Positions 4,958 to 39,000 of a stretch of DNA of 64,000 bases are shown piece by piece (the first letter of the stretch is position 1; the number at the start of each line of letters is the position of its first letter). This stretch comes from Salana multivorans. GTDB lineage: Bacteria > Actinomycetota > Actinomycetes > Actinomycetales > Beutenbergiaceae. A program made the position numbers and the translations under genes. The DNA is taken from the NCBI RefSeq assembly GCF_003751805.1, contig NZ_RKHQ01000002.1:310001-374000 (forward strand), in the 5' to 3' direction. Under the pieces are notes generated by a model. It worked only from the letters and a program-made list of their open reading frames with translations. It ran no database searches and was not told the DNA's origin.

Positions 4958-4965
4958 ATGGTGGC

Positions 4966-19545: not shown

Positions 19546-20088
19546 TTAAGCTCGAAGTAGGTCCTTCAAGCCGAGGTCGACCGTCAGTAGGTAGTCGCGC
19601 CCCGCACAGTACGAAAGACGCGCGGTTTCCCTGCCCAGCACCATTGAAGTTCCCTTAAGGTAAATATCGAGGTAGCGTTTGAGATCTCGCTCTTTAGCCA
19701 GCATGAAGGTCACTTGTTCTCTCAGTTGTTGATCGGTCAGAGAGCCACTCCCGTGCGCCAAGGCGTTCCTTGCGAAGATGACAGCATCGAACCTGCTCCC
19801 AACGTCATCGATTCGAAGGTCTATTCCAAAAGCGCTAGAAAGCGCATGTTGTCGGTCGCTCCACGTCCGCGAAATATCGCGAGCATGCTTCGAGAGCAAG
19901 AAGTGAGTCAGAGGATCTGCCTTAGCCTTCGATTTGTTGGTCGCCTCTATCAGCATCTCGTCGATTCGCAACTCGACGATCGAGGCGACACTGAGGATCG
20001 TGGCGCTAGCACCAGAAGATGTCGATAACGTTTGCGAAAGGCGCCGGACCGCTAGCTCTGTGTCGGCCGTTACTGACGCTCCTATCAT
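19546..20088 (-). CDS. HEPN-motif protein, small partner of the RT (AbiA small-subunit-like)
   Basis: A 180-residue helical protein. Its central part contains F-A-R-N-A-L-A-H-G, giving the R-x4-H motif (Arg107, His112) of HEPN ribonuclease domains, followed by a G-S-G-S-L turn. The rest is predicted alpha-helical with Lys/Arg-rich helices. The ATG overlaps the reverse transcriptase stop by 4 bp (ATGA), so the two are co-translated. In lactococcal AbiA an RT domain and helical repeats are followed by a HEPN domain in one chain; here the HEPN part appears as a separate gene. GC content is far below that of neighbours, indicating acquisition. Identification rests on the motif and the linkage. 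Confidence 0.6.
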   Translation of the reverse strand: MIGASVTADTELAVRRLSQTLSTSSGASATILSVASIVELRIDEMLIEATNKSKAKADPLTHFLLSKHARDISRTWSDRQHALSSAFGIDLRIDDVGSRFDAVIFARNALAHGSGSLTDQQLREQVTFMLAKERDLKRYLDIYLKGTSMVLGRETARLSYCAGRDYLLTVDLGLKDLLRA

Positions 20089-21557
20089 GGCTTCTCGGCA
20101 CCCCAGCGATAAGCTATGCGGTTGAGCGCAGATTCGTCTCGTAATGCCTGTCCGACTGATGAGCTGTGACCTCCGTCCAGTGTTCCGACGGTGCCAGCGA
20201 GGGCTAGGCGAGTAACACCACTGGCGCGGACGTATAGTTGGGCGATCTTTTCGACTTTTACGCGGTGGTGGAGGGCTAGAAGTGCGGCGGCTTCGGCGCG
20301 CACCGTCTCGAGTGGGGATTCGAGTTGGCTGACTGCCCAGTCAAGCAACGGCTTCGACTGCCTTCCTTTTGGTCTTGGAAGTGTTGCTGCTGTCGATAGT
20401 ATCCATATTCTCGACCAGGGTCCGAGCCGCTCAAGTTTTGTCAGGCGCGACAGGGTCTTCCAGTTCTCGGCCACTTCGCCCTCACGTGTAGAAACATACT
20501 TTGCGACCGCGGGGAGTCGTATCGGGTCGCGTTCTAGAACGCCAATCAGGAGCTCATCTTCGAGCCGCTTCTCGGCGGCGGTGAGAATATGCAGCGCAAG
20601 TGCCACAAGGCGCGGGCGAACAGAACTGATTTCCTTGCTCTCCCCCACCCACTCTTCGATTATTGTTCGAAGGGCCTGAGCGTCGACCTCAACGTCTCCA
20701 GCGTCGACCTCCTCGAGGTCGAGATCATCATACCCGGTTTGGATGAATTCGATAGTTCGAAGGGTATCTGCCGCTCGAGCCTTGTGGTCGTCAAAAAGAG
20801 CCTCTTTGGCCCTTTCGTCCTCGCGAATCTGCCGGGCGGACCGTATGTTCACCTTCCCCTCGGCTAGGGCTAGGCCTACAGAGCGTGCCTCTGTGGAGAG
20901 TTGTTCGATTGCTTGATGAGCATCTGTCCAGTTGCTACAAACAATCCGGAAGTCATCGGCGTACCGATGGACGGGTCGTCCTGTACGAGCGATCGCTCTC
21001 TCCAGGCGTGCGAGATAGGCGTCTGCTAGTAGGTGACTTCCCTCGAGAGCCTGTGGAATTCCGACCTGACGTTGAGAGATTGCATTGAGGAAGGAATGGA
21101 GAAGTTCTACCAATTCATAAGGGGCGCCCTGTAAGACTAGTTCTTCCGCGAGCGTCGGGTGGGAGATGTACTCGTAGCAGGCTGCGATGTCTGCGTCTAC
21201 GATGCGCTGTTCTTCGGTACTTACTGGTCCAGATCCGAAGGCAGTGTGTTCTGTGAACGGGGTGGCGCGAGATGGAGACTCCAACCAGGCCGTAGTGCCT
21301 TTGGCGAGGGCCTCGTAGTATGTTCGAGCGCAAGGTTCTAGGATAGTGAGCGGGCGGGTGCCATATGTTTTTCTGGGCATTCCTATGACTTCTACTGCCC
21401 ACGGCATGGCGGTGGCCAATCTCTGCTCCGTGGCCAACGCCAAGGCTTCCTCCTGGTCTACAAGGGTTCGTTCGGAGGCCAAGACTGGAAGTTGATGAAG
21501 CGGTTCTTTGAGTACGCGCTTTGCCGTTTCCTTTAGTTCGAGATCGGCAGTACTCAT
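20085..21557 (-). CDS. Abi-type reverse transcriptase (AbiA large-subunit-like)
   Basis: A 490-residue protein with an RT palm. Motif A is V-D-A-D-I-A-A-C-Y-E-Y-I (Asp121, Asp123), motif B is GIPQALEGSHLLADAYL (166-182), and the catalytic Y-A-D-D is at 199-202. After about residue 250 it becomes a helical-repeat region (for example LVALALHILTAAEKRLEDELL and AEAAALLALHHRV) resembling the HEAT-like domain of AbiA/AbiK-group polymerases. There is no maturase, integrase or protease domain, so it is neither a group II intron nor a retroviral-type element. GGAGAG precedes the ATG by 8 nt. It is followed by an overlapping HEPN gene. Known Abi RTs make untemplated DNA and abort phage infection; that role is inferred. 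Confidence 0.8.
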   Translation of the reverse strand: MSTADLELKETAKRVLKEPLHQLPVLASERTLVDQEEALALATEQRLATAMPWAVEVIGMPRKTYGTRPLTILEPCARTYYEALAKGTTAWLESPSRATPFTEHTAFGSGPVSTEEQRIVDADIAACYEYISHPTLAEELVLQGAPYELVELLHSFLNAISQRQVGIPQALEGSHLLADAYLARLERAIARTGRPVHRYADDFRIVCSNWTDAHQAIEQLSTEARSVGLALAEGKVNIRSARQIREDERAKEALFDDHKARAADTLRTIEFIQTGYDDLDLEEVDAGDVEVDAQALRTIIEEWVGESKEISSVRPRLVALALHILTAAEKRLEDELLIGVLERDPIRLPAVAKYVSTREGEVAENWKTLSRLTKLERLGPWSRIWILSTAATLPRPKGRQSKPLLDWAVSQLESPLETVRAEAAALLALHHRVKVEKIAQLYVRASGVTRLALAGTVGTLDGGHSSSVGQALRDESALNRIAYRWGAEKP

Positions 21558-21893: not shown

Positions 21894-24791
21894 TCACTGT
21901 CCAGATGTATCAGCGTTGGATTCTCGCTCGCCGTGGTCGCCCACCCTCGCGTCGTCGGCCTGCACCGCGGCCGCTGCATTCATCGGGTCCACCGCGTCCT
22001 CCGTCGCCGACACGGCGACCACCCCGCTCCCGGCCAACCGCAGCTGCTCCGCCTCGACCACCTCGCGCATGATCGCGGCATCGGACACGTCGAACGCCTC
22101 CGGTGCCGCCTCCGCCGTGTCCGAGACGGCCGCGAACTCCGCGAAGAGCGCCCGCTTCCGAGCCAGGATCTCGACCACTCGCGCGTCCACGCCCTCCTCG
22201 GACAGCAGCCGGTGCACCTGGACGGACCGGAGCTGCCCCATCCGCCTCGCCCGCGCGATCGCCTGCCACTCCGTGGTCGGCTTGAGCTGTGGTTCGCAGA
22301 TCACCACGACCGACGCCGCCTGGATGTTCAGCCCGACGCCGCCGGCCACGATCTGCGCGACGAGCGCGGCACCGGCGTCCGCGACGGTGAACGCGTCCAC
22401 CATCTCCTGGCGTCGCGCGGCCGGCACGGCCCCGGTCAGCGGACCGATGACATAGCCGGGCAACGTCCGCGCCACCGCGTCGAGCACGTCGAGGTAGTTC
22501 GAGAACACGAGGACCTTGCGCCCGTTGTCCTCGGCCTCCTCGACGATCTCCACGAGTCGCTGCACCTTCTCCGACGCCTCGCCCTGCAGCATCGCCGCCT
22601 GCCGCATCGCCTGGAAGTTGCCCGACCGCACCGCGTCCCCGTACGCCGCGGCATCGGCGTCGGACAGCGGCATCCACTCCTCGACCTCGACCAGCTCGGG
22701 CAGCTCGCCGAGCACGTCCTCCTGGCTGCGTCGCAGGTAGGCGGGAGCTACCTGTCGGCGGAACAGGCGCGGGCGCAGGTCGCTCCCGTCGACCACGAGG
22801 TCGGGCCGCACGTACCCGACCAGCTCCCGGAACTCCCCGACGCGGTTCTCCAGCGGCGTCCCGGTGAGCAGGATCGCGCGCTCGGCACGCTCGATCAGCC
22901 GTGCGCTGCGCCGCGACCGCTTCGCGGCCGGGTTCTTGATGTAGTGCGCCTCGTCGACGACGACGCAGGCGGGCGCCTCCTCCTCGGCCTGCCGTTCCAG
23001 CCACCCGAGCATGTCGTAGGTCGTGACCGCGACGCCGCCGTCGCGCCGCCAGGCCAGCAGCGCCTCGTCGCGATCCTGGCCGTGCAGCCGGTGGGCGGGC
23101 AGGGAGGACTTCGCCTCGACCTCCCGCACCCAGTTCGTCACCACGGCGGCGGGGCACACGACGAGGAACCGCCGCGCCCCCTGCGCCCACAGGTGCGCGA
23201 GGACCGCGAGCGCCTCGACGGTCTTCCCGAGCCCCATCTCGTCCCCGATGACGACCTTGCGCTGGACCAGCGCGAACCGCGCGGCGAAGCCCTGGTACCC
23301 GCGCAGCGACACCGTGAGGTGGTCGGTGCGCAGCTCGCACCGGCGCACGGCCGCCACGACCTCGTCGGGCAGACCGCCCTGCGCTGCCTCCTCGCTCGAC
23401 GTCGCGAGGCCGAGCTCCTCCAGCAGCGTGAGGTAGTCGGCGGGACGCGCGAGGAAGTCGGCCCAGGGGTCGGCCGGGACGGGACGCGGGGCGGTGCGCG
23501 CGATCTGGGGCGCGCGCTCGACGACGGCGGCGACCGCGGCCAGCAGACCCTCCGGGTCGTCCCCGAGGACGACGATCCGCGTGACGTCGCCGGTGAGCAC
23601 CACGGCGAGCGGCGCGAGGGCCCGCGTCCGCACGACGACCCGTCCGGGGTTGCGCGTCCGACGTCCGCTGTCCCACGCCGCAAGGCGGCGCACGAGGTCG
23701 TGCGTGCCCCGCGACGGCGACGCCGCGTCGATCCGGATGGTCGTCTCCTCGAACGTCGTGTGGCGCAGGGTCTCCGCCGCCCCGACGATCCGCCGCGCCG
23801 TCATCGGGCCGAGGCCCGGAAGGGTCGCGAGCCGCTCGCCGTTGACCAGAACGTCGTGCACCGACGTGATGCCGGCATCCGTGAGCGGCCGGACGAGGAG
23901 GCGCTCGCGGGTCGCGTCCCGGAGCCGGTCGACCGGCATCCCGGCGACGACCACGTCGGTCTCCGCCGCACGCAGCGCGGTCGCGGCGTCGAGGGCGCTC
24001 CGCCGCAGCGGCTCCTCCTCCGCGAGTGCGGCGAGGATGATCGCGGTCGCGCGCGGGAGTTGGTCGACGACGACGGGGGTGCCCTCCAGCAGGTGTGCGT
24101 CGGCGGAGTCCGGCAGTCGCCGGGTCAGGCCGACGCCCGGGGCGAGGGCGTGCTCGACGGGGACGCGCCCGACTGGGATCGCGGTGTCGTCGAGACGGTC
24201 GAGGGTGGCGTCCACGCCCGCCGAGCTGCCCCAGGCCTCGTACTCCAGCAGGAACCGCGCGGCCCGCTCGCTCGCCTCGCGGGCCTTGGCGCCGCGGAAG
24301 AAGCGGCGCAGGCCGAAGCCCGACCGCACGTCGCGCAGCACCCGGGGGATCTCGGTCGTGAGCTGGTCGAGCACCGCGGCCTCGCCCGGGCGCAGGGGCG
24401 GAAGGGCGACCTGCCGGGCGAGGCGGCCGAGAGTGTGACCGTCGGCGTCGCGCAGGGGGAGGACCGCCCAGCGGCCCTCGTCCTCGATCGCGACGTCCAC
24501 GATCCGCGCCCGCAGCTCGACGAAGGCCGCGTCCGCCTCCGCGGTGACGCGCGCCCGGTGCCGCGCGACGACGCCGGCGCGATCGACCCAGTCGACGACG
24601 CGGGCCGCGGCGGTGCGGACGCGTTGCGGGTCCTCCCGGTTCACGGCCGCCTCCGTGGCGACGAGGACGGCTCCGAGCGGGGGCGCGACGCGTCCGACCC
24701 CGGTGGCCCCGGCCGCCGCGGTGTGGTCGGCCCCTGCATCCTCGTCATCGCTCCCGTCGCTGCGTCGGCGCTGCTGCACATCGAGGCCCAT
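21894..24791 (-). CDS. SNF2-family helicase/ATPase
   Basis: A 965-residue DNA-dependent ATPase. The first 480 residues are poorly conserved but include a helix-hairpin-helix motif (LPGLGPMTARRIVGA, near 323). The SNF2 core follows: motif I DEMGLGKT (near 517), motif Ia VVCPAAVVTNW, motif II DEAH (near 612), motif III LLTGTPLENR, then the helicase C lobe with VFSNYLDVLD, and motif VI Q-A-I-A-R-A-R-R-M-G-Q. Such proteins remodel nucleoprotein or displace bound proteins. It lies 43 bp after an esterase gene on the same strand. GC is typical of the chromosome, so it is probably native and not part of the adjacent RT island. Confidence 0.9.
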   Translation of the reverse strand: MGLDVQQRRRSDGSDDEDAGADHTAAAGATGVGRVAPPLGAVLVATEAAVNREDPQRVRTAAARVVDWVDRAGVVARHRARVTAEADAAFVELRARIVDVAIEDEGRWAVLPLRDADGHTLGRLARQVALPPLRPGEAAVLDQLTTEIPRVLRDVRSGFGLRRFFRGAKAREASERAARFLLEYEAWGSSAGVDATLDRLDDTAIPVGRVPVEHALAPGVGLTRRLPDSADAHLLEGTPVVVDQLPRATAIILAALAEEEPLRRSALDAATALRAAETDVVVAGMPVDRLRDATRERLLVRPLTDAGITSVHDVLVNGERLATLPGLGPMTARRIVGAAETLRHTTFEETTIRIDAASPSRGTHDLVRRLAAWDSGRRTRNPGRVVVRTRALAPLAVVLTGDVTRIVVLGDDPEGLLAAVAAVVERAPQIARTAPRPVPADPWADFLARPADYLTLLEELGLATSSEEAAQGGLPDEVVAAVRRCELRTDHLTVSLRGYQGFAARFALVQRKVVIGDEMGLGKTVEALAVLAHLWAQGARRFLVVCPAAVVTNWVREVEAKSSLPAHRLHGQDRDEALLAWRRDGGVAVTTYDMLGWLERQAEEEAPACVVVDEAHYIKNPAAKRSRRSARLIERAERAILLTGTPLENRVGEFRELVGYVRPDLVVDGSDLRPRLFRRQVAPAYLRRSQEDVLGELPELVEVEEWMPLSDADAAAYGDAVRSGNFQAMRQAAMLQGEASEKVQRLVEIVEEAEDNGRKVLVFSNYLDVLDAVARTLPGYVIGPLTGAVPAARRQEMVDAFTVADAGAALVAQIVAGGVGLNIQAASVVVICEPQLKPTTEWQAIARARRMGQLRSVQVHRLLSEEGVDARVVEILARKRALFAEFAAVSDTAEAAPEAFDVSDAAIMREVVEAEQLRLAGSGVVAVSATEDAVDPMNAAAAVQADDARVGDHGERESNADTSGQ

Positions 24792-25965: not shown

Positions 25966-27516
25966 CTACAGGCGGATGCCCGTGAGATCGACCGGCAGCC
26001 CGCGCGGGTTGGCTGCGACGAGGTCGTCCGGCGCGGGAAGCGAGGCCCAGCGTCCCGTCCGATAGTCGAGCCGGAGGGTGGGGCCGGTGACCCGGACGGC
26101 GCCCGCGAGATGGACCAGCCCGTCGGGGTCGAAGGGGCGCAGCGCCAGGAGGTGCTCGTCGTCGGGCCGGGGACCGTGACCGAACCACGCCCACAGGTCG
26201 GCGACCGTCAGCGACGCGAGCCGCTCGATCACCAGCGGCTCGTCGACGAACCCGGCACCCGCGCAGCTCGCGTCGGCCCCCGGCACCGGCCGCGCGGCGG
26301 AGAGGAGCACCTCCCGCATGATGGCCGGTGTCGTCCGGACTCGGAGCGAGGCACCGGTGGTCGCCGCGATCGTCGCGGCGACGTCCGGCCGGACGCCGAC
26401 GAGGGGCAGCGCCTGGATGCCGGCGCCCGCCGCGGGGGAGTCCCAGATCTCGTCCGTGAAGGAGTCGATGATCGCGAACCCGACCGCCGGCACGCCGACC
26501 GCGGGTTCACCGCGCGCCGCCATGAGCTCACGACCCAGCTCGCAGAACGCCGCGACCACGAGCCGGGCGAGCGCCGAGACCCGCGGCGCCGCGAACGACG
26601 TTCCCACCTTCGCCTCGTTGAGCGCCGACGCGCCGTAGGCCACGAGGTCGGGACCCGGGCCACCGCGGCTGGAGTAGTCCGCCACGACCGTGCCGGCCTC
26701 GTCCCGCGTCGCGCCGACGCTCAGCACCCAGTCCGGCCGGGCCCACGCCGACATCGTGTCGCCGGTCGCGGCGTCGTCGGCTGCCGCGCCGCAGTTCCCG
26801 GCGGCGATCACGACCAGGACGTGGGCGCTCGCGGCCGCCGTCGCGAGGTTGACGATGTCGTTCGGCGCCGTCGGGTAGGGGACGCGGGTCGTCCCGATGC
26901 TCACGTTGACGACGGGGACGAGCGCGGGCGGGGTCGGCAGGTCGATCGACGGGTCGAGATCGACGACGGGACGGTCCCCGTCCGTCCGGATCACCGGGTA
27001 GCCGATCCCGGGGTGGTGCCGGTAGAAGGCGTCGGGGTCGCCGGCCTGCCGTTCCGCGAACGCGCACACGGCGCCGAGGCCGACGACGATGCCCCGCGCG
27101 GTGCCCACCGTCGCCCAGGCGGGGACGACGCCGACGACGCCCGGGACGGGCGGGGGAGGCGGGTCGGGCTTGCCGTGCCTGCCGGGTGCCGGCTGGCTCT
27201 GGGGACGGTCGACCTCGGCGAGCCGGAGCCCGCGGTAGAGCCACCGGACGTGGCCGATCCGGCCGAGGCGCGCGAGGAGCTGGTCCGCGTCGTCGTCGAC
27301 GTCGTTCGCGGCCTCGAGGCTCGGCTCGTATGCGACGAGCACCCGACCGGGCAGGGGCTCGAGGGCCCGTGGATCGGGCGGCGCGCAGCGGCCGACGGGC
27401 TCACCGTCGTCCAGGAGGTCGATGGTGAGGGGAGCGACCAGGTCGGGGAAGACCGGGTCGTCACCCCGGATCCCCGGTTCCCCCTCGTCCGGGTCAGACG
27501 AGGGCTTCGATGGCAT
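25966..27516 (-). CDS. Subtilisin-like (S8) protein with incomplete catalytic triad
   Basis: A 516-residue protein whose core matches S8 peptidases. The Ser block is VGTSFAAPRVSAL (near 305), the oxyanion Asn sits in VVIAAGNCG (near 239), and the strand PVVNVSIGTT matches the usual 'N-x-S-x-G' element. The expected Asp block (D-T/S-G) and His block (H-G-T-x-V) cannot be found upstream; the corresponding region reads VVGVVPAWATVGTARGIVV. It may be a pseudoprotease or use displaced residues. There is no signal peptide. Its start overlaps the end of the preceding gene by 23 bp, suggesting translational coupling, though a later start is possible. Confidence 0.7.
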   Translation of the reverse strand: MPSKPSSDPDEGEPGIRGDDPVFPDLVAPLTIDLLDDGEPVGRCAPPDPRALEPLPGRVLVAYEPSLEAANDVDDDADQLLARLGRIGHVRWLYRGLRLAEVDRPQSQPAPGRHGKPDPPPPPVPGVVGVVPAWATVGTARGIVVGLGAVCAFAERQAGDPDAFYRHHPGIGYPVIRTDGDRPVVDLDPSIDLPTPPALVPVVNVSIGTTRVPYPTAPNDIVNLATAAASAHVLVVIAAGNCGAAADDAATGDTMSAWARPDWVLSVGATRDEAGTVVADYSSRGGPGPDLVAYGASALNEAKVGTSFAAPRVSALARLVVAAFCELGRELMAARGEPAVGVPAVGFAIIDSFTDEIWDSPAAGAGIQALPLVGVRPDVAATIAATTGASLRVRTTPAIMREVLLSAARPVPGADASCAGAGFVDEPLVIERLASLTVADLWAWFGHGPRPDDEHLLALRPFDPDGLVHLAGAVRVTGPTLRLDYRTGRWASLPAPDDLVAANPRGLPVDLTGIRL

Positions 27517-28549
27517 GGAACCCGCTCCAGACCTGGAGGGCGACGAAGCCGAGCACGGCGGCGACGAGCGCCGCGAACCCGAGCTGCGCCGCGGCGGGCG
27601 CCACCCCGACGGCGGCCGACACGAGCGCGTCGTACTTCTCGACGACCTTCCTGCCCGTCGTGACCCAGCCGATGCGCGCGGTGTGGGCGGCCACCGTCGT
27701 CGGCAGCCGGCCCTCCGCCTCGGTGAGGTCGCCCGATCCCGCGGCCTCCTGCCACGCGGCCTCGACGCCGCCGCGGCCGAGCAGCCGGCCGTAGAGGTCG
27801 GTCGCGATGTCGGCGACGCCCTCGTCGATCTTCTTCTGGATCGTCTCGACCAGCTCGTCGAGCTTCTCGGCGAGCGCCTCCGGGAGCAGTGACTTCACCT
27901 TCTCCACGACCCACTCGGTCAGCTGCACGACGCCGCGCTTGAGCGCCGCCCACCAGCCGCTGAGCCGGTCCTTCAGCGCGGCGTAGGCCGCGGCGGCGGC
28001 ACCCTTGAGGACGCCGTCGAGGCCGCTGACAAGGGCGCCGCCGGCCAGTTTGCCGACGCTCCCGGACAGGACGGCGAAGGACTCGGTCGCTCCCGCAGCC
28101 TGCATGTCGTCGAGGTTCTTGGCGAGCGAGTCGGGGGTCGCGACGACGGAGGCGGTGGCCGCGACGATCGCCCGGGTCTCGGTGAAGGACACCGCCCGGC
28201 CCTCGTCGACGCTCAGGCCGGCGAACGCCCCCTCGTCCGTCGTGTCGGCGAGCAGGAGGCTGTCCGCGAGCGCGAGCGTCGTCGACAGGAGCGACGCGGC
28301 CTGGAAGCTCCCCTCGAGGGAGCCGTCGGCGGCGGCCTCGAGGGTGCGCCACGTGCTCTCCGCACCGGCGAGCACGTCCTCGACGGAGGCGTCGATGCGT
28401 TCGGCGTCGGCCGTGCGTTCGGCGTCCGCCCCCAGCTCCCCGAACGGACCCGGGTCCAGCGGCCCGACCCGTTCGGCCTCGGTCAGCAGGCGGTCGGCGG
28501 CGGCCTGCCACTGGGCGGCGGCCGAAGCCAGCGTGGTGCTCGTGTACAT
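27494..28549 (-). CDS. Helical protein with C-terminal membrane segment, partner of the S8-like gene
   Basis: A 351-residue Ala-rich protein I cannot assign to a family. Residues 1-100 form heptad-like helices recalling WXG-type or coiled-coil proteins. A Gly/Ala-rich stretch (about 160-190) precedes a striking amphipathic section with clustered Trp, Lys and Glu (GWWAALKRGVVQLTEWVVEKV and on to about 250). The C-terminus has a hydrophobic segment near 318-342. This is consistent with membrane association or pore formation on activation. Its stop overlaps the start of the subtilisin-like gene, so the two probably form one functional unit; cleavage or recruitment by the S8-like protein is a possible mechanism. 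Confidence 0.6.
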   Translation of the reverse strand: MYTSTTLASAAAQWQAAADRLLTEAERVGPLDPGPFGELGADAERTADAERIDASVEDVLAGAESTWRTLEAAADGSLEGSFQAASLLSTTLALADSLLLADTTDEGAFAGLSVDEGRAVSFTETRAIVAATASVVATPDSLAKNLDDMQAAGATESFAVLSGSVGKLAGGALVSGLDGVLKGAAAAAYAALKDRLSGWWAALKRGVVQLTEWVVEKVKSLLPEALAEKLDELVETIQKKIDEGVADIATDLYGRLLGRGGVEAAWQEAAGSGDLTEAEGRLPTTVAAHTARIGWVTTGRKVVEKYDALVSAAVGVAPAAAQLGFAALVAAVLGFVALQVWSGFHAIEALV

Positions 28550-28668: not shown

Positions 28669-30600
28669 TCACCCGAGCGACGGGGCCACCGCGCGGAGCA
28701 TCTCCTGGGTCTCCGGGTCCGTGGAGTAGAGGACCGTCCCCTTCATGCCGCGCGTGAGCAGCACCTTGTAGATGTTCCGGATGAGCCGGTCGAAGGTCGC
28801 GGCGTCGACGGCGTTGCGACCACGGAAGGCGGGATCCCTCGACTCCTCGCGCTGGGCGACCCAGTGGTCCGTCCGCCACACGAGGTCGGGTCCGAGGATG
28901 AGGCCGTTCCAGTCGTACTCGAACCCCTGGGCCGTGTAGACGCAGCCGACCTGCTCGAACCCGCCCGGCTCCGTCGCCCACAGGTGCGACGGCGGGGCGT
29001 CGCCGACGCTCCGGTCGGCCTTGACGTTCCACGGTCGCGACCACTCGCCGATCCGCACGTCCGGGACCAGGCCGCCGGACGGGGTCGGGTCGGACCACGG
29101 CCAGCAGTAGCCGGCGGTGATCCGAGCCGAGTCGCCGTCCGCCAGACGGTCGCGGAGGAAGGCCTCGAGCTGGTGGGGGGAGTCGGCGACGGCCAGACCG
29201 TAGCGGTCGTCGCCCCGCCATGTCGCCGGGAGGGCGGCGCCACCGGTGTCGTCCTCGCCGTGCACCACCTCGCCGACGCCGGGGACGATCTCGAGCCCGA
29301 GCAGGCCGAGGACCCACTCGACGTACACCTGCGACCCGCCGGCGCGGAACTGCCCGTTGAGGTCGACGTGCTCGACCTCGATCCCGAGCGCCGCGGCCCG
29401 CTTCCGGATGAGGTCGACCGTCCCGCTCTCGCCGGGACGGACCACCTGGTGCTCGTCGAGGAGGAAGACGGGGACGCGGGAGGCCGCCAGCAGCTCGTCG
29501 ATCTGGGGCCGGGCCCGGTCCCGGATCTCCTTGCGGGTGTAGCGGTCGACGGAGGTCTCCCGGATGCGATGCGCCTCGTCGAGGACGAGCACGTCCAGGT
29601 CGTTCGGGATCGCGTCCATGAACTGGTTGAAGTACCGGAACAGCTGCTGCGTCTCGCGCGAGCGGTGGCCGGCGACCTTGCGCAGCGTCTGGGTGAACGA
29701 GCGCGACCCCGTCGCGTGGAGCGCGCTGCGTCCCTCGCGCCACAGCTGTCCGAGGAGGGAGAGCGCAATGACGCTCTTGCCCGAGCCCGGACCTCCCGTG
29801 ACGATGACGGCGGTCTTGGTGCTGGCACCCCGTCCACGTCGGACCGCCTCGACGACCATCCGGTAGGCGATCTCCTGCTCGTCGAGGAGCTGGAACTGCT
29901 CCCGGTCGCGGATCTCGGCTGCCGCGTGCGCCAGAAGCTGCTTGCTCGGGCCGATCTTGGAGGTCAGGAGGAGGTCGGCGGCGTCGGCCCCCGACTCGTC
30001 CGCGAAGTGCTCGGCGAGGAACTCCAGCCATCGACCGCGCCGCGCTCCCGTGTAGAGCGGCGCGGCCTCGATCCCCTCGGGAGACGCGAGGAGCGGGGCG
30101 ACGCCGTCGTCGCTCGCGTTGTGAAGGTAGGCGACGCCGCTCAGCGACGCCCGTGCGGGCCCGAGCGCCAGCGTGAAGTCGCGCAGGTAGTCCGCGTAGT
30201 GACGGACCTGGAGGCTCGGGTGGAGGGAGGGTCGGTAGCGGGCGCCGTCGACGTCGAACAGCGTGGTCGAGTCCGGCCAGGGTGTGACGCGCGACCACTG
30301 CTTGAGCTCGACGACGAGGTAGGAGGGCCGGCTGGTCCGCGGGTGCACGCCGGCGAGGACGACATCCGTCCGCTTGCTGCTGAGCGGCAGCCTGTGCTCG
30401 AGCAGCACCTCGACGCGGCCGAGCCCGGCGTCGGCGAGGTCGCGGGCAAGGACGGGGAGCGAGCCCCGCCACGAGGCGGCCTCACCGTGGCTCACGGCGG
30501 TCCCCTGGTAGAGCAGGTGGTGGCGCAGTGCCGTGAACTGCAGGTCGACCGCCGCCGTCTCCAGCAGTGAACGTGCCGACAATCGATAGGTCGAGACCAC
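28669..30600 (-). CDS. PD-(D/E)xK nuclease-DUF2075 helicase fusion
   Basis: A 643-residue protein with two parts. The N-terminal 110 residues hold a PD-(D/E)xK nuclease core: Asp79 in KRTDVVLAG and E98-x-K100 in YLVVELKQW. A superfamily 1 helicase of DUF2075 type follows, with Walker A GGPGSGKS (near 271), Walker B LVLDEAHRIRE (near 342), an LLDEHQVVRPGE motif, and a late YTAQGFEYDWNGLILG element typical of UvrD-like helicase ends. GTG 30600 is chosen because AGGGGGAA precedes it; a TTG at 30627 is possible. The layout resembles nuclease-helicase immunity (Nhi)-type antiphage proteins. GC is normal, so it may be an older acquisition or core gene. Defence is inferred. Confidence 0.8.
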   Translation of the reverse strand: MVSTYRLSARSLLETAAVDLQFTALRHHLLYQGTAVSHGEAASWRGSLPVLARDLADAGLGRVEVLLEHRLPLSSKRTDVVLAGVHPRTSRPSYLVVELKQWSRVTPWPDSTTLFDVDGARYRPSLHPSLQVRHYADYLRDFTLALGPARASLSGVAYLHNASDDGVAPLLASPEGIEAAPLYTGARRGRWLEFLAEHFADESGADAADLLLTSKIGPSKQLLAHAAAEIRDREQFQLLDEQEIAYRMVVEAVRRGRGASTKTAVIVTGGPGSGKSVIALSLLGQLWREGRSALHATGSRSFTQTLRKVAGHRSRETQQLFRYFNQFMDAIPNDLDVLVLDEAHRIRETSVDRYTRKEIRDRARPQIDELLAASRVPVFLLDEHQVVRPGESGTVDLIRKRAAALGIEVEHVDLNGQFRAGGSQVYVEWVLGLLGLEIVPGVGEVVHGEDDTGGAALPATWRGDDRYGLAVADSPHQLEAFLRDRLADGDSARITAGYCWPWSDPTPSGGLVPDVRIGEWSRPWNVKADRSVGDAPPSHLWATEPGGFEQVGCVYTAQGFEYDWNGLILGPDLVWRTDHWVAQREESRDPAFRGRNAVDAATFDRLIRNIYKVLLTRGMKGTVLYSTDPETQEMLRAVAPSLG

Positions 30601-30656
30601 GACGGGGTTCCCCCTGGGCGCGCGCAAGAGTGCGCGGCGGGGGACATGTCGGGCCG

Positions 30657-30684
30657 GACCACCGGCTGTCGCGATCCGGTGGTC
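30657..30684. terminator. Hairpin between RibD-like and nuclease-helicase genes
   Basis: A 9-bp inverted repeat GACCACCGG/CCGGTGGTC (30657-30665 with 30676-30684) has a 10-nt loop. It lies about 110 bp downstream of the RibD-like stop on the minus strand. It may terminate that transcript before the nuclease-helicase gene. Confidence 0.4.
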
Positions 30685-30794
30685 GGGCCGCTCGCGGGGT
30701 GGTCAGGAGCGAAGTCCGTCGGATGCCGCTGATGACCCGAACACCGTAGCCGAGGAAGCTCGTCCCGCGTGCGTCAGGACGAGCCGCGCTCCCT

Positions 30795-31424
30795 CTACTG
30801 GCTGCCCATGGTCGTCATGTCGCCGGTGCCGGGGACGGTGTCGGCGAGGGCGTAGCGCAGGAACACCGTGCCCTTCTCGCTCGCCAGCGGGGGCTGGAGC
30901 AGGGTCACGCTGGCCGGGACGGCGCCGCCGTCGAACACCTTCTTGCCCGTGCCGAGGATGATCGGGTGCACCCACAGGTCGAGCCGGTCGAAGAGCCGCT
31001 CCCGCAGGAGCGACTGCACCAGGTTGAGGCTCCCGACCACGCGGACGTTCTCGTGCCGCTCCCGGAGCTCGCGCACCTCGGCGGCGAGGTCGGGGCCGAG
31101 CTGGGTCGACCCCGCCCACGACAGGTCGACCCGCCCCCGGGAGGCGACGTACTTCGGGATGCCGTTGAACAGCGTGGAGAAGCCGCCGTCCGGCCCGCTG
31201 CGCTGCTGGGGCCAGTACGCGGCGAAGATCTCGTAGGTGCGCCGGCCGAGCAGGAGGGCGTCGCACCCCTCGTACGCCGCGGCGACCCACTCGCCGGACA
31301 GGTCGTCGAGCAGCGGGGCCTGCCAGCCGCCGAACGGGAACCCGACCGGGTCCTCCTCGGGGCCGCCGGGTGCCTGCGCGACGAGGTCGAGGGTGGTGAA
31401 CAGCTCGATCTGGATGAGGCCCAT
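30795..31424 (-). CDS. RibD/dihydrofolate-reductase-like domain protein
   Basis: A 209-residue protein of the RibD C-terminal reductase family. It begins MGLIQIELFTTLDLVAQAPGG, contains the G-x-x-P-F-G-G-W segment, and has the nucleotide-binding parts LLLGRRTYEIFAAYWP and VVGSLNLVQSLL. The typical HPIILGTGKKVFDGG motif appears near the C-terminus. The ATG at 31424 has GGGAGCA upstream; an earlier in-frame start would only add Pro-rich sequence. These proteins are stand-alone NAD(P)H-dependent reductases of uncertain substrate, distinct from folate DHFR in sequence. Confidence 0.88.
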   Translation of the reverse strand: MGLIQIELFTTLDLVAQAPGGPEEDPVGFPFGGWQAPLLDDLSGEWVAAAYEGCDALLLGRRTYEIFAAYWPQQRSGPDGGFSTLFNGIPKYVASRGRVDLSWAGSTQLGPDLAAEVRELRERHENVRVVGSLNLVQSLLRERLFDRLDLWVHPIILGTGKKVFDGGAVPASVTLLQPPLASEKGTVFLRYALADTVPGTGDMTTMGSQ

Positions 31425-32480: not shown

Positions 32481-32846
32481 CTAGCGCATCAGCGTCAGTC
32501 CGAGGACCTGGGCGATTCCCGCGTCGACGGTGCGCATGAGATCGCCGGGCACGCGCCCGACGGGCGGCAGCTCTAGGTCGTAGCGGTTGAGGGTCGCGAG
32601 GGACGTGACGTTGACGACGCTGTCGCGCGGCAGTCCGGTCGCGTCCGCGCGGAGGAGGGTGTTCCCCGGGAGGTCGGCCGCATCGACCCTCGAGGTGAGG
32701 ACCGCCACGATGACGGTGGCCAGACGAGAGGCGTTGTAGGCGTCGGACTGGATGACCAGGACGGGCCGGCGCTTGGCGGGGCGGTGGTCACCGTCCGTCG
32801 CGGGACCGAGGTCGACCCAGTGCACGTCGCCTCGTTCGATCACCAC
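32481..32846 (-). CDS. MazF-like endoribonuclease toxin
   Basis: A 121-residue toxin of the MazF/PemK (CcdB-fold) family. It shows the signature RGDVHWVDLGPA, then R-R-P-V-L-V-I-Q-S-D, the A-T-V-I-V-A-V-L-T-S strand carrying the conserved Thr/Ser, and D-S-V-V-N-V-T-S-L-A-T-L for the active-site face. MazF enzymes cut mRNA at short specific sites and stop growth. It overlaps the upstream antitoxin gene by 7 bp, the normal type II order (antitoxin first). Length is standard. Confidence 0.9.
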   Translation of the reverse strand: MVIERGDVHWVDLGPATDGDHRPAKRRPVLVIQSDAYNASRLATVIVAVLTSRVDAADLPGNTLLRADATGLPRDSVVNVTSLATLNRYDLELPPVGRVPGDLMRTVDAGIAQVLGLTLMR

Positions 32847-33106
32847 TCCTCGCCCTCGGTCGCTGCGAGACGAGCGCGGGAGTGACGGGTGACGTCCTGG
32901 ATGAGGTCGTCGTCGGCGCCCGCGGTGGCCTCGCTCCGGCGATCGAGGTAGGCGTCGATCGCCTGCGTCAGCTCACCGACCTCGAGGTCAGCGGCGAGCC
33001 TCACCCCGGCGGCCCGGAAGAACTCCGAGCGGTTGAGGCCCGCGCGTGCGGCCACCGAGTCGAAGTGCTCGAGCAGGTCGAGCGGGAGGGAGATCGCCAC
33101 CTTCAT
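32840..33106 (-). CDS. Ribbon-helix-helix antitoxin (MazE-type)
   Basis: An 88-residue antitoxin. The N-terminal ribbon-helix-helix reads MKVAISLPLDLLEHFDSVAARAG-LNRSEFFRAAG (split here), with the alternating strand and conserved Gly-Leu-Asn-Arg-Ser-Glu turn used for DNA binding. The acidic C-terminal tail (DDDLIQDVTRHSRARLAATEGEEW) would wrap the toxin. ATG 33106 is preferred by homology of the strand; an in-frame ATG at 33127 would add seven residues. It neutralises the toxin and probably autorepresses at repeats just upstream. Confidence 0.88.
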   Translation of the reverse strand: MKVAISLPLDLLEHFDSVAARAGLNRSEFFRAAGVRLAADLEVGELTQAIDAYLDRRSEATAGADDDLIQDVTRHSRARLAATEGEEW

Positions 33107-33395: not shown

Positions 33396-34349
33396 ATGAC
33401 GGCGACCGCGGTCCTTGCGGACCCCGACGACGTCGCGATCGGCGGCGACGACCGGGTCGAGCGGCTCGAGCGCGTCCGCAGCGCCCTCCGCCGGGCCGAG
33501 ACCGCGGCGGGGGTGCGGCCCGTCGACTGGGCGAGCGTCGAGCCCCCGCGCGGCGCCGGCATGACGTCCCCGGCATCGGAGACTGCAGCCCCCTCGACGT
33601 CCCCGGCATCGGCACCCCCGGCCCCCCTGGCCTCCCGCGCCGCCGCCGCACCCCCGGAGCCCATCGCGCTCCACGCGCAGCCCGCGACCGCCGCCCCCGT
33701 CGTCTCCCGGGTCGAGCTCGGCGGGGACGGGGCGTGGCTGCCCGCACCCCCCGCGCTCGCCCCGCTCCTGCCGTACGGCGCCATCCGGCGGGGCAGCGCG
33801 ATCGAGGCGACGGGCTCGACCGCGGTCCTGCTCCACCTCGTGGCCGCGCTCGCGGGGGCGGAGGCGTGGACCGTCGTCGTCGCCCGCCCCGACCTCGGGC
33901 TCGCGGCAGCGCTCGCGGCCGGGATCGACCCCGGCCGGCTCGTCCTCGTCCCCGACCCCGGGCCGACGGCCGGGTCGGTGCTCGGTGCCCTGGTCGACGG
34001 GTTCGACGTCGTGGTCATCGGCGAGTGCGCTGCCCTCTCGGCCCGTGACCGTCGCTCGCTCGCCCAGCGGGTGCGCCACCGCGGCGCTGTCCTGCTCAGC
34101 TCCGCGCCCTGGCCCGAGGCCACCCTGCACGTGGCCGCCGCCGAGCGGTCCAGCGCCGGCCTCGTCGACCGGGGACGCCTGACGTCGGCCGGCATCGTCG
34201 TCGACGTCAGCGGTCGCGGCGGCGATCGACGACGACGGGGCCGCGTCGACCTCACGCCCGCCGGCCTGGTGCCGGCCCCCGGGGAAGGAACGCGGGCAGC
34301 AGGCCCGTCGAGCCTCCCCCAGCCGTCGATCGAGCTGGAGGCCGGCTGA
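33396..34349 (+). CDS. imuA': ImuA'-type mutasome protein
   Basis: A 317-residue RecA-like fold protein without clear Walker motifs. An N-terminal helix (VERLERVRSALRRAE) precedes an Ala/Pro-rich linker (50-95). A domain follows with the pattern L-P-Y-G-x-I-x-R-G-S-x-x-x-x-x-G-S-T and predicted strand-helix repeats. Sequence alone is weakly conserved; the call comes mainly from its position directly before imuB and dnaE2 and under a LexA box. In mycobacteria ImuA' and ImuB are accessory factors that connect DnaE2 to the replication clamp for damage-induced mutagenesis. It overlaps imuB by 1 bp (TGATG). Confidence 0.82.
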   Translation: MTATAVLADPDDVAIGGDDRVERLERVRSALRRAETAAGVRPVDWASVEPPRGAGMTSPASETAAPSTSPASAPPAPLASRAAAAPPEPIALHAQPATAAPVVSRVELGGDGAWLPAPPALAPLLPYGAIRRGSAIEATGSTAVLLHLVAALAGAEAWTVVVARPDLGLAAALAAGIDPGRLVLVPDPGPTAGSVLGALVDGFDVVVIGECAALSARDRRSLAQRVRHRGAVLLSSAPWPEATLHVAAAERSSAGLVDRGRLTSAGIVVDVSGRGGDRRRRGRVDLTPAGLVPAPGEGTRAAGPSSLPQPSIELEAG

Positions 34350-36055
34350 TGAGCGCCACCAGCGCCACCCCCGCGCCCGCCACCCCCGCCGCACCCGGCC
34401 CGCGCACCGCCGCCGACTCCCCGCGCCTCGGCATCCTCTGGGTGCCGGACTGGCCGGTCGCCGCCGCGAGCACCGAGCAGCGCATCCCGATGGACCTGCC
34501 CGTCGCCGTCCACGACCCCCAGGCCGTCCTCGCCGCCTCGGCCCCCGCGCGCCGCGCCGGCGTGCGCCGCGGGATGCGCCGCCGCACCGCCCAGCAGCTC
34601 TGCCCCGAGCTGGTCCTCGTCCCCGCCGACACCGCCCGGGACGTGCGCGCGTTCGAGCCGGTGGTCCAGGCCGTCGAGCACGTGGTCGCGGACGTCGAGG
34701 TGGTCCGCCCCGGCATGATCCTGTTCGCGGCGGCCGGTCCCGCGCGCTACCTCGGCGGCGAGGAGAAGGTGGCCGAGGACCTGGTCGGGATCATCGCGGA
34801 CGAGGCGGGCGTCGAGTGCCAGGTCGGGATGGCCGAGGGCTACCTCGCGGCCGTGCTCGCCGCGCGCGAGGGGATCGTCGTCCCGCCCGGGACGTCCGCC
34901 GAGTTCCTCGCCGACCGCGACGTCCGCAGCCTCCTGCACGCCGCGACGACGCGGGAGGCGAGCGCCGCGTGGGCCGACCTCGTCGACCTCCTGCGCCGCC
35001 TCGGCCTGCGCCGGCTCGGGGACGTCGCCGTCCTGCGCACGAGCGACGTCGCCGCCCGCTTCGCCGACCTCGGCCTCCAGGCCCACCGCCTCGCCCGCGG
35101 TCTCGACGCGCGCCGCCCGAGCGTGCACCGCCCCGACCCGGACATCGCCGTCGGCGCCGAGCTCGACCCGCCCGCCGCCCGCATCGACACCGCCGCGTTC
35201 GTCGCGCGCCGCATCGCCGAGGACCTGCACACCCGGCTCCTGCGCCGCGGCGCGGTGTGCGCGCGGCTCGTCGTGATCGCCCGCACCACCACCGAGGCCG
35301 AGCTCGTCCGCACCTGGCGCATCGAGGGGGCGCTGACCGCGGGGGAGCTGACCGACCGCGTCCGCTGGCAGCTCGAGGGGTGGCTGTCGGGACGCAGCGG
35401 CCGTCCGCCGGCCGCGCCGCTGCGTCACCTGGAGCTGGTGGCGCAGGAGGTCTCCCCGGCCGGAGCGGCGCAGGAGGGGCTGTGGGGGCGTCGCGCCCGC
35501 GGCGAGGTCCAGGCCGCCCGCGCCGCGACCCGCGTCCAGGGCATGATCGGCCCCGACCGCGTGCTCGTGCCCGTCCCCGAGGGCGGGCGCGCGCCGCGCG
35601 ACCGCGTCCGGCTCGTGGCCTGGGGGGACGACGCCACGCCCCGCCGCCCCGCCGACGCCCCGTGGCCGGGGGCCGTCCCGCCGCCGCTGCCCACCGTCCT
35701 GCCCATCACGCCGCCGGCCGTCCACCTGCTCGACGCGGGCGGCGAGGCCGTCGTCGTCGACGACCGGGGGCTGATGTCGACGACGGACGGTGCCCCGGCC
35801 GAGCTGATCGTCCCGCGCGGGGAGGGGCTGGCCTGGCTCGTGCCCGGGCGGCACCGTGTGCTCGCGTGGGCCGGGCCGTGGCCGATGACGCAGCACTGGT
35901 GGACCCCGGGCGGGGTCCGGGGGAGCTGGTTGCAGGTGCAGGTGGCGGTCGGGGGCGAGCCGGGGGGAGAGGGCGACGCCGGCCCGGCGAGCAGCGGCGT
36001 CGTGCTGCTCCTGCGCCGCGACGACGCCTGGTGGGTCGAGGGGGTGGTGGACTGA
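34349..36055 (+). CDS. imuB: ImuB, Y-family polymerase-like mutasome protein
   Basis: A 568-residue Y-family polymerase homolog. The N-terminal palm begins LGILWVPDWPVAAAS, where an active polymerase would have Asp-x-D/FF; the catalytic acidic residues are absent, as expected for ImuB. Conserved features include AVLAASAPARRAGVRRGMRRRTAQQLCP, GLRRLGDVA (helix-hairpin-helix) and the little-finger region. The C-terminal 150 residues are ImuB specific and end in a Trp-rich tail (QHWWTPGG, DDAWWVEGVVD). It is thought to act as a scaffold that binds the beta clamp, ImuA' and DnaE2. It overlaps both neighbours by 1 bp. Confidence 0.93.
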   Translation: MSATSATPAPATPAAPGPRTAADSPRLGILWVPDWPVAAASTEQRIPMDLPVAVHDPQAVLAASAPARRAGVRRGMRRRTAQQLCPELVLVPADTARDVRAFEPVVQAVEHVVADVEVVRPGMILFAAAGPARYLGGEEKVAEDLVGIIADEAGVECQVGMAEGYLAAVLAAREGIVVPPGTSAEFLADRDVRSLLHAATTREASAAWADLVDLLRRLGLRRLGDVAVLRTSDVAARFADLGLQAHRLARGLDARRPSVHRPDPDIAVGAELDPPAARIDTAAFVARRIAEDLHTRLLRRGAVCARLVVIARTTTEAELVRTWRIEGALTAGELTDRVRWQLEGWLSGRSGRPPAAPLRHLELVAQEVSPAGAAQEGLWGRRARGEVQAARAATRVQGMIGPDRVLVPVPEGGRAPRDRVRLVAWGDDATPRRPADAPWPGAVPPPLPTVLPITPPAVHLLDAGGEAVVVDDRGLMSTTDGAPAELIVPRGEGLAWLVPGRHRVLAWAGPWPMTQHWWTPGGVRGSWLQVQVAVGGEPGGEGDAGPASSGVVLLLRRDDAWWVEGVVD

Positions 36056-39000
36056 TGCCGTACGTCCCCTACGCCGAGCTGCACGCCCACTCGGCCTTCA
36101 GCTTCCTCGACGGCGCCAGCGAGCCGGGGGAGCTCGTGGACGAGGCGGCGCGGCTCGGCCTGGACGCGCTCGCTCTCACGGACCACGACGGCCTCCCGGG
36201 CGTCGTCGCCTTCTGGCGGGCGGCCAAGGCGGTGGGGCTGCCCGTCGTCGTCGGCGCCGAGCTGAGCCTCGACGCGCGCACCCCCCGGACCGGCGAGATG
36301 GACCCCGACGCGACCCACCTCCCCGTGCTCGCCCGCGGCAAGGAGGGGTACGCGCGGCTCTCGCGCGCCATCGCGACGGCCCACCTGGTCACCGGTCGCA
36401 AGGGCGAGCGCGACTACGGCCGCGGCGTCGGGCTGGACCCGCTCGAGGTGCTCGCGGAGCAGGGCGGCGGCCCGGACGGGCACTGGCTCGTCCTGACCGG
36501 CGGTCGCAAGGGCCCGCTGCGCCGCGCGCTCGAGCCGGGTGCGGGGACGGGGCGAGCCCCCGTCTTCGACGTCCCAGCCGCCCGCGCCGTGCTGGGACGC
36601 ATGACGGACCTGTTCGGGCGCGAGGGGCTCGCCGTCGAGCTCACGAACCTGGGCTACGCCTACGACGTCGAGCGCTGCGACGTGCTCGCCGAGCTGGCCC
36701 GCGAGGCCGGCGTGCCGGCGGTCGCGACGGGGAACGTCCATGCCGCGACGCCGCGCGACGCTGACCTCGTCGACGTCCTCGCCGCCGTCCGGGCCAGGGC
36801 CAGCCTGGAGGAGATCGACCCGTGGCTGCCGGCCGTGTCGCGGCACCTCGTGTCGGGGAAGGAGATGCTGGCGCGCCACCACCGCCACCCCGAGGCGGTG
36901 GCCGCGGCCTCCCGCCTGGGTCGGGAGTGCGCGTTCGATCTCGACCTCGTGGCCCCGGGCCTGCCGCCCCACCCCGTGCCGGACGGGCACACCGAGGCGA
37001 CGTGGCTCCGCGAGCTCACGATGGCGGGGGCGCTGGAGAAGTACGGGCCGCGCTCGGCCCCGCGCTCGGCCGAGGCCTACCCGACGCTGGAGCGCGAGCT
37101 CGAGCTCATCGTCCGGCTGGAGTTCCCGGGGTACTTCCTCGTGATCACGCGGATCATCGACTTCTGCCGGCGGAACGGGATCCTCTGCCAGGGCCGGGGG
37201 AGCGCGGCCAACTCGGCCGTCTGCTATGCGCTCGGCATCACGGCCGTCGACGCGGTCGAGCACAAGCTCCTGTTCGAGCGCTTCCTCTCCGACGGCCGCA
37301 CCGGTCCGCCCGACATCGACCTCGACATCGAGTCGAGCCGCCGCGAGGAGGTCATCCAGTTCGTCTACGACACCTACGGCCGCGAGTACGCCGCACAGGT
37401 CGCCAACGTCATCTCCTACCGTCCGCGCTCCGCCGTGCGGGACGCCGCCCACGCCTTCGGCTACGACCTCGGTCAGCGCGACGCCTGGTCCAAGGGTCTG
37501 GAGCGCTGGGCCGGCCTGCGCGGCGAGTCCCCGACGCGGCCGTGGTGGCAGGGCAGCGCCGAGGAGCTGCGGGACCCGGACGAGGACCCCGAGCCGGGGC
37601 CGTCGGGCGAGGACGGCCCGCCGAGCGCCGAGCGGGAGGCCGAGCTGCGCGCCCAGCGGGCCGCGCGGGCCGCCAGGCGAGCCGCCGAGCGCGGCACTCA
37701 GCGGGGCGTCGACCGCCACGACCCCGCCCCGCCCCGCCACCTGCCACCGGCGGCCGACCAGGTGGCGGACATCCCGACCCACGTCGTCGACATGGCCGAG
37801 CGCATGCTGCGGCTGCCGCGCCACCTCGGGATCCACTCGGGCGGGATGGTCATGTGCAACCGGCCCGTCATCGAGGTGTGCCCCGTGGAGTGGGCGACGA
37901 TGCCGGAGCGCACCGTCCTGCAGTGGGACAAGGAGTCGTGCGCCGACGCGGGCCTCGTCAAGTTCGACCTGCTCGGCCTCGGGATGCTCACGGCCCTGCG
38001 GCTGGCGTTCGAGCACGTCGCCGAGAGCGAGGGGATCCGGCTCGCGCTGCACTCGCTGCCGCAGGAGGACCCGCGCGTCTACGAGCTGCTGCAGGCGGCC
38101 GACACGGTGGGGGTGTTCCAGGTGGAGTCGCGCGCGCAGATCGCGACGCTGCCGCGGCTCAAGCCAGAGAGGTTCTACGACATCGTCGTCGAGGTCGCGC
38201 TCATCCGTCCCGGCCCGATCCAGGGGAACTCGGTGCACCCGTACATCCGGCGCCGGAACCACCGGGGAAAGATCCCGGACGACGAGCTGTACCCGCACCC
38301 CCTGCTCAAGCCAGCGCTGGAGAAGACGTTCGGAGTCCCGCTCTTCCAGGAGCAGCTCATGCAGATCGCGATCGACGCCGCCGACTTCTCGGCGTCGGAG
38401 GCCGACCTGCTGCGCCGCGCGATGGGGTCCAAGCGGTCACGCGACCGGATGGAGGCCCTGCGCGCACGGCTGCTGCGGGGCATGACGAGGAAGGGCATCC
38501 CCGACGACGTGGCCGAGACGATCTACGACAAGCTCGTGGCGTTCGCGGACTTCGGGTTCCCCGAGTCGCACGCGTTCTCCTTCGCCTACCTCGTCTACGC
38601 CTCCTCCTACCTCAAGTGCTATCACCCGGAGGCGTTCTTCGCCGGGCTGCTCGGGGCGCAGCCGATGGGGTTCTACTCGCCGGCGTCGCTCGTCGCGGAC
38701 GCCCGGCGGCACGGGCTCGTGGTGCGGCGCGCCTGCGTCGACCGCTCGCGCGTGCAGGCGCACGTCGAGGTGATCGGGTCGGGAGCTGGGGAGCGCGGCC
38801 TGCGTCCGCGCCCGACGTTCGCCGAGGAGACCTGGCTCGAGGACCGCGCGCGGATCGAGGGGCGAGTGGCCGAGGGCGTGGCCGGGGTCGAGCGGCCCTG
38901 GGCGCACCCCGAGGACGTGGACGATGACGACGACGAGGATGCGGCCGACGCGGGGGCGGGTGCGGCCGCGTCGCCGCGCGCGGACGCCGGGGCCTACGGG

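Follow-up and report, generated by a model that had tools for sequence, protein, structure and literature searches.

A gene on the reverse strand of the Salana multivorans genome (28669–30600 of a 64,000-nucleotide stretch, contig NZ_RKHQ01000002.1 positions 310,001 to 374,000, which is called the window below and supplies all coordinates) encodes a protein of 643 amino acids that appears to combine a PD-(D/E)XK-type nuclease domain and a superfamily 1 (SF1) helicase in a single chain; this gene and its homologs are denoted NH here. The gene is preceded by a structured RNA leader (30609–30729, reverse strand), and the commonest neighbor of its relatives is a small pyrophosphatase similar to dCTP pyrophosphatase 1 (DCTPP1). 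Some relatives share the leader core with a gene for a nuclease that we call EVE-like-HNH, and this sharing, along with the DCTPP1-like neighbor, suggests a modified-cytosine logic. Tentatively, with a probability of about 0.38, NH is an RNA-gated anti-phage nuclease-helicase, a mobile accessory effector that acts within such a logic together with the pyrophosphatase. An earlier note on this DNA, made from the sequence alone, described the nuclease-helicase and overlooked both the leader RNA and the gene similar to DCTPP1, which together describe NH better.

Domain architecture and distribution of the nuclease-helicase

The open reading frame extends over 28669–30627 on the reverse strand (652 amino acids in full), and translation likely starts at the GTG codon at 30600, which is preceded by AGGGGGA, yielding the protein of 643 residues; residues are numbered from this codon, except for the Pfam positions, which are those of the 652-residue frame. 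A Pfam search identifies PF09848 (SLFN-g3_helicase, the family that other annotations call DUF2075) in residues 272–637 with a score of 265.6 bits, the cut-off being 24, and the match covers positions 2–354 of the 354 in the profile, so that the protein belongs to the DUF2075 helicases over the whole domain. The SF1 helicase of the Schlafen group 3/DUF2075 type occupies approximately residues 231–639 (28684–29910, reverse strand), with the Walker A motif GGPGSGKS, including K275, and a DEAH motif at 341–344. The AlphaFold model of the whole protein has a pLDDT of 90.9, and structural matches of the helicase include UvrD (Z 21.9) and SLFN11 (Z 18.9), along with SLFN14 and RecD2.

The N-terminal domain (residues 1–226; 29923–30600, reverse strand) matches no Pfam family. 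Among 83 aligned NH sequences (the set of 80 loci described below and the window; loci L005, L040, L042 and L083 were excluded by a length filter), D79, E98, K100, Q101 and W102 never vary, and E40, D79 and E98-x-K100-Q101-W102 are invariant in 54 aligned N-termini, a set that includes Bacillota, Bacteroidota, archaea, one phage record and viral contigs. The model of this domain alone (pLDDT 95.3) resembles mostly PD-(D/E)XK-type nucleases, which make up the majority of the 50 structural matches listed. The closest folds are those of Cdn1 and Can2 (Z 8.6 to 7.3), EndoMS (7.0) and Card1 (6.8), followed by BstEII (6.3), SduA (5.8) and HamA (4.3), the Z-scores being modest throughout, from 8.6 down to about 4. 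Foldseek returns nothing at E ≤ 0.001 for the same model, and a sequence-based search of solved structures finds nothing below E 0.11 when started with NH alone and nothing below 0.011 with the NH profile. The assignment of the N-terminus to the PD-(D/E)XK class thus rests on the fold class and the motif. Together with the PF09848 match, the predicted fold and the D...ExK motif support the single-chain nuclease-helicase proposed in the earlier note, which had also picked D79 and E98 as core residues of the nuclease.

Relatives were collected by a scan of species genomes, from which the best 80 of 298 were kept as loci; nearly all are actinobacterial. In a whole-genome sample of the phylum, NH is present in 22 of 396 genomes (E ≤ 1e-30), and in the family it is found in 5 of 24, one of which has just fragments at contig ends. 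By comparison, the neighboring gene at 34349–36055, which we take to be ImuB, is present in 23 of the 24. These counts exclude the alternative, which the earlier note had named as a refutation, that the protein is a housekeeping DUF2075 helicase conserved across the phylum. Relatives are also found in 27 plasmid records (with 80 percent or more of the query covered in 20 of them), 4 phage records and 5 viral contigs. NH is an accessory gene with a patchy distribution in bacteria. In two loci (L097 and L098, from genomes G194 and G184, respectively), NH occurs in tandem, with one leader copy for each gene.

Among known systems, the likeness to the staphylococcal Nhi, also named in the earlier note, holds as an analogy. 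Nhi is likewise a single-chain nuclease-helicase, and the PADLOC model of Nhi matches the helicase of NH. As a profile comparison the likeness fails: the match (26 bits, positions 182–306 of 470) leaves the N-terminus uncovered, and in eight other members of the NH family this model also matches the helicase part alone. Because the match is not full-length, NH was not filed as Nhi; its neighbor and leader, too, are not those of Nhi. Nhi is reported to nick and unwind DNA and to sense the phage SSB (PMC12904381), and NH may still work in a similar way. The AbiO model behaves like that of Nhi (26 bits, helicase part). The best PADLOC match of the window NH is PDC-S41, and in the distant relatives L113 and L117 this model covers the N-terminal domain (residues 3–313 and 4–323, respectively). 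However, the window protein scores only 56 bits in three stretches of the 657-position model, eight other NH proteins score 44 to 74 bits, and for the distant L114 and L115 the AbiO or Nhi model gives the better score. PDC-S41 is, moreover, a one-gene candidate family without the partner or leader of NH, and our literature search found no paper that names it. Hachiman (HamAB) and Gabija (GajAB) similarly combine a nuclease and a helicase in defense, and HamA is among the fold matches of the NH N-terminus, although this match is weak (Z 4.3); these systems consist of two chains, in contrast to the one chain of NH, which is often encoded beside a pyrophosphatase.

The RNA leader and its alternative helices

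The stretch from the promoter to the start codon of NH is much more conserved than the flanking sequence, and approximate matches to the SOS box upstream of relatives led to the discovery of the leader. A covariance model, R1, built from 63 leader copies in 58 of the 80 loci, matches the window at 30610–30727 (33.7 bits, E 1.8e-4); the leader contains a long variable loop, and a likely −10 element, TACGGT, lies just upstream of it (30743–30748, reverse strand). R1 places a leader directly 5' of NH in 79 of the 80 loci; of the 22 loci on which the model was not built it recovers 21, and the sole miss is the first NH copy of L032. At E ≤ 0.001, R1 has 8 matches in the 396 genomes, with about 11 candidates scored per genome; each of them directly precedes an NH copy, and they come from exactly those six genomes in which NH shows 56 percent identity or more. 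In the family sample, all five NH genomes are matched, four of them strongly (the window leader has an E-value of 4.5e-4 here). Weak matches in five other family genomes (G002 at 5.8e-4; G013, G021, G001 and G023 at 0.03 to 0.06) were set aside as chance because their loci contain no match to NH, EVE-like or pyrophosphatase genes; that of G002, a genome without NH, is comparable in strength to the weak match of the window. A pattern scan of the viral contigs yielded no matches; R1 does find a leader in one of them, L120. Of 74 copies of the leader, 72 have a TANNNT box 5–22 nucleotides upstream, whereas only 3 have one in a control interval; therefore, the leader is probably the complete 5' untranslated region of NH. 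A search of Rfam 15 found no match at E ≤ 1 in 30400–31000 of the window and none at E ≤ 0.5 for the leaders of L020, L026, L036 and L046, and our literature search found no description of either the leader or the NH–pyrophosphatase pair.

Four helices, P0 to P3, were placed by hand, and every pair of each is a standard pair in the window leader. P1 (30642–30717, reverse strand) is formed by 30717–30714 and 30712–30710, which pair with 30642–30645 and 30649–30651, and covaries in sets of 63 and 89 copies. In a MAFFT alignment of the 63 copies, P1 and P2 together show 30 doubly changed cells compared to 5.7 ± 2.0 after shuffling, a value that none of 500 shuffles reaches, and slid versions of these helices all fall far below the observed number. 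When the second leader copies are included, P0 and P1 show 44 double changes compared to 8.3 after shuffling, in an alignment fitted to P1; within P0, double changes occur at just one of four pairs. The interpretation of P0 as a pseudoknot was rejected, since P0 encloses P1 in a nested arrangement and is in competition with P2. The C-run of P1 can also pair with the Shine–Dalgarno GGGGG, forming the masking helix P3 (30610–30643, reverse strand; CCCCC at 30643–30639 with GGGGG at 30614–30610), with the hairpin P2 inside. All seven leaders that were folded have P3 in their minimum-energy fold; its covariation is moderate, with matched U-A exchanges in L068, L076 and L014. P1 and P3 use common bases and are largely mutually exclusive. 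The alternative helices likely constitute a translation switch that would be masked by default and opened by stabilization of P1.

Apart from the leaders directly upstream of NH, R1 has 19 further matches in the 80 loci: 5 before tandem NH copies, 10 before EVE-like-HNH genes (one of these a fragment), 3 unassigned, and 1 in antisense overlap. The 12 second leader copies before EVE-like-HNH genes are shorter; they retain P1 and apparently lack P2, and in 11 of them the outer pair of P1 is A-U in place of G-C. In L039, which completes the nine loci of the EVE-like-HNH cluster, the leader core is recognizable by eye as well. The HNH domain is clear: HNH_2 scores above the cut-off in 8 of 10 EVE-like-HNH proteins scanned. 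In L042 (9910–11974), NH is split into two reading-frame pieces and a leader copy of the EVE type lies behind it with no EVE-like gene following, as if both genes had decayed.

The pyrophosphatase, a proposed modified-cytosine logic and its alternatives

Clustering of the neighbors in the 80 loci identifies a small pyrophosphatase of the MazG superfamily as the commonest neighbor of NH. A search of solved structures with the profile of this family finds dCTP pyrophosphatase 1 (RS21-C6) as the best match (E 1.9e-36), and the catalytic acidic residues E42, E45, E75 and D78 are invariant in 41 copies. The relationship to DCTPP1 is thus apparent in both the profile and these residues; the difference is that eukaryotic DCTPP1 is a free-standing housekeeping enzyme. 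Counted by profile, with adjacency defined as less than 700 bp from NH, the pyrophosphatase gene is adjacent in 42 of the 80 loci and near in 5 (36 and 5, respectively, of the 65 loci in which both flanks extend to 3 kb or more). The adjacent genes are mostly divergent from NH (26); 15 lie upstream in the same direction and 1 downstream in convergent orientation. When duplicates and fragments are counted too, giving 119 loci with a match to NH, the pyrophosphatase is adjacent in 60, near in 8 (the window among them) and not found in 51. The association is also evident in the 396-genome sample: the pyrophosphatase is found in 16 of the 22 NH genomes compared to 21 of the 374 others (Fisher p 5e-14, and p 8e-12 without the 11 genomes of genus g18). 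By their coordinates, the two genes are adjacent in 10 of these 16 genomes, share a contig at a distance of 8 to 31 kb in 4, and occupy different contigs in 2. Among 7 plasmid records inspected of the 27, the pair is adjacent in 2, from Priestia (Bacillota) and Halalkalicoccus (an archaeon), and 6 kb apart in one from Hymenobacter; it is also adjacent in the one phage record inspected of the 4 and in 4 of the 5 viral contigs. DefensePredictor (PMC13092281) lists MazG among predicted, unvalidated defense domains, several of which it says had already been predicted by Burroughs et al. 2015 (reference 59 there).

In the window genome, the sole match to this family is 4948–5322 (forward strand), a DCTPP1-like NTP pyrophosphatase gene of the MazG superfamily. 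It is most similar to the NH-adjacent copy of Pseudactinotalea, the genus that also has the NH nearest to that of the window, and is possibly a displaced partner of NH.

Genes with a PLD-helicase-DUF3427 architecture, presumably of the SauUSI type, lie at most three genes from NH in 8 of the 80 loci. NH resembles the setting of EVE-HNH and SauUSI-like enzymes in that these genes occur near it and the EVE-like-HNH genes carry its leader core, and differs from them in lacking a recognized modified-base reader; the EVE match is itself weak. In PMC7641849, EVE-HNH proteins are predicted to be modification-dependent restriction enzymes and MutT homologs adjoin SauUSI, a precedent for a pyrophosphohydrolase beside an enzyme of this kind. 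In L032, Pfam identifies NERD-kinase and Eco57I-type methylase domains near NH, in genes of two clusters that also occur in L013 and L044; the first of these clusters lies at most three genes from NH in those 3 of the 80 loci, and we take the two to be PglW-like and PglX-like.

An anti-phage role of NH is what we infer from this combination. The SF1 helicase would engage foreign nucleic acid and the PD-(D/E)XK-type domain would cut it. In the default fold of the leader, the Shine–Dalgarno GGGGG would be paired with the upstream C-run (P3 and the hairpin P2); in the alternative P0/P1 fold, which evolution has maintained, the same C-run would pair further upstream and leave the Shine–Dalgarno sequence free. 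NH and the EVE-like-HNH nucleases would attack DNA with modified cytosine, and the pyrophosphatase would remove modified dCTP so that host DNA is not self-marked. The set in the window would consist of NH, the leader and the distant DCTPP1-like gene. That the leader represents a new class of sensory RNA, perhaps for a nucleotide signal of infection such as modified or depleted dCTP, that gates NH and EVE-like-HNH in modified-cytosine immunity, with the pyrophosphatase protecting the host, is a long shot.

A number of observations weigh against the RNA-gated, modified-cytosine scheme. With respect to the leader, covariation of P3 is weaker in a second test, the observed values being attained in 3 to 44 of 500 shuffles; P1 and P3 partially coexist in L014; and R1 detects no leader before NH in the distant loci (the match in L103, at 0.44, is remote from NH). 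With respect to the partner, the examined DNA contains no pyrophosphatase in 33 of the 80 loci and 24 of the 65 with long flanks, and the gene is absent from 6 of the 22 NH genomes of the phylum sample and from 4 of the 7 plasmid records. In the tree, copies adjacent to NH are interspersed with those that stand alone (17 label changes compared to 26.5 after shuffling), and therefore the partner is not one clade. The window copy lies 23 kb from NH and follows, at a distance of 47 bp, a gene that we read as an ABC permease; taken alone, it scores 20.5 bits with both Pfam MazG and MazG-like, below the respective cut-offs of 22 and 27, and matches no NCBIfam family. The relative G001 (L172) has a DCTPP1-like gene split over two frames in a genome without NH. 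The EVE assignment comes from one protein of 11 scanned (L082, 21.0 bits against a cut-off of 23), the other 10 having no match to Pfam EVE; the window genome has no full EVE-like-HNH gene; and the pyrophosphatase is missing from 7 of the 9 EVE-like-HNH loci (p 0.029). Because the two are rarely found together, their joint logic is possibly wrong, and EVE-like-HNH and the pyrophosphatase may be alternative partners of NH. Finally, a PADLOC scan of neighbors in relatives (115 of 227 near genes and 115 of 324 far genes, E ≤ 1e-15) yields 106 families near NH and 99 far from it, that is, no clear enrichment; the first 25 families of each set include both real and generic defense models.

The commonest neighbor being a nucleotide-cleaving enzyme, and the EVE-like gene mostly occurring without it, are also compatible with a gating mechanism like that of Gabija, in which NTPs or dNTPs would hold the nuclease off until phage replication and the pyrophosphatase lower the pool, the EVE-like protein being an occasional alternative partner. 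This alternative is possible, if doubtful. The kin of DCTPP1 cleave dCTP types rather than the whole pool, and the common leader core on the EVE-like-HNH gene would be left unexplained. GajA is indeed inhibited by NTP and dNTP (PMC8136825). It is of the OLD type, however, a fold class different from that of the NH nuclease.

Less probable, in our view unlikely, is a function outside defense, with NH as an accessory nuclease-helicase of repair or recombination and the pyrophosphatase sanitizing damaged dCTP. Its precedent is the mycobacterial MazG, which removes 5-OH-dCTP (PMC3855555). The window NH also lies near genes that we read as an ImuB/DnaE2 mutasome; yet NH is patchy whereas the ImuB-like gene is nearly universal in the family, and EVE-like-HNH and PLD-DUF3427 helicase genes occur nearby in relatives. 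SOS control of NH was considered and rejected, given 2 box matches in the window compared to 3.9 expected.

We regard as improbable that NH acts on RNA like the eukaryotic Schlafens, the leader being its own substrate or an antitoxin-like RNA in autoregulation. The Schlafen group 3 type of the helicase, with its alignment to SLFN11 and SLFN14, fits such an effector, as does the occurrence of the leader within the loci before NH and EVE-like genes, besides the three unassigned copies and the antisense one; however, the likeness to Schlafens is restricted to a helicase core that is common to UvrD and RecD2, and the nuclease domain is PD-(D/E)XK-like, with matches that are mostly DNA nucleases. 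That the conserved upstream blocks are repressor sites in DNA rather than an RNA switch has a similarly low probability: P2 is a short inverted repeat, as is typical of operators, and the −10 box is just upstream, but the pairs of P1 are non-palindromic and covary far above the shuffled and slid controls, and the blocks, which encompass the Shine–Dalgarno sequence, are situated on the downstream side of the inferred start site.

Surroundings in the window and implications

The earlier note had further suggested that this arm of the chromosome collects defense genes and had pointed to an S8-like pair beside NH and a reverse transcriptase. The S8-like gene (25966–27516) and the reverse transcriptase (20085–21557) are both present in the window. 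The region 19546–21557, a low-GC part of the window (0.575), contains the reverse transcriptase, which is of the DRT UG22 type (RT_UG22, 461 bits, nearly full length), and a gene for an RT-associated HEPN protein. It is followed by an SNF2 helicase gene (21894–24791) that PADLOC assigns to PDLC02852, 'DpdE', with 797 bits over most of its length; with the NCBIfam DpdE model it scores 78, far below the cut-off of 500, which makes the label doubtful. The proposal of a defense-collecting arm is partly supported by these nearby genes, although the PADLOC scan around relatives shows no clear enrichment. The overlapping pair at 25966–28549 encodes an S8 protease that weakly resembles T7SS mycosins and a protein of 351 amino acids that matches no Pfam family. 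The notion that this pair accompanies NH had to be dropped: neither protein clusters with any gene of the 80 loci.

Elsewhere in the window, 7780–10317 encodes a protein with NB-ARC and MalT-like TPR regions and a sub-threshold HTH, an NLR-like architecture. A toxin–antitoxin pair consisting of a ribbon-helix-helix protein and a PemK/MazF-type protein is located at 32481–33106. The region 33396–39786 begins with a gene for a 317-amino-acid protein without a Pfam match, followed by the genes read as ImuB and DnaE2, presumably a mutasome operon.

In the genomes searched, the leader is confined, weak matches aside, to the NH family and the gene beside NH, and it may therefore serve as a marker for finding further members. 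Concrete candidate substrates follow from the repeated association with a DCTPP1-like enzyme and a possible reader of modified bases, and a dedicated, conserved, folded leader on defense genes would raise the question of how immunity is turned on.

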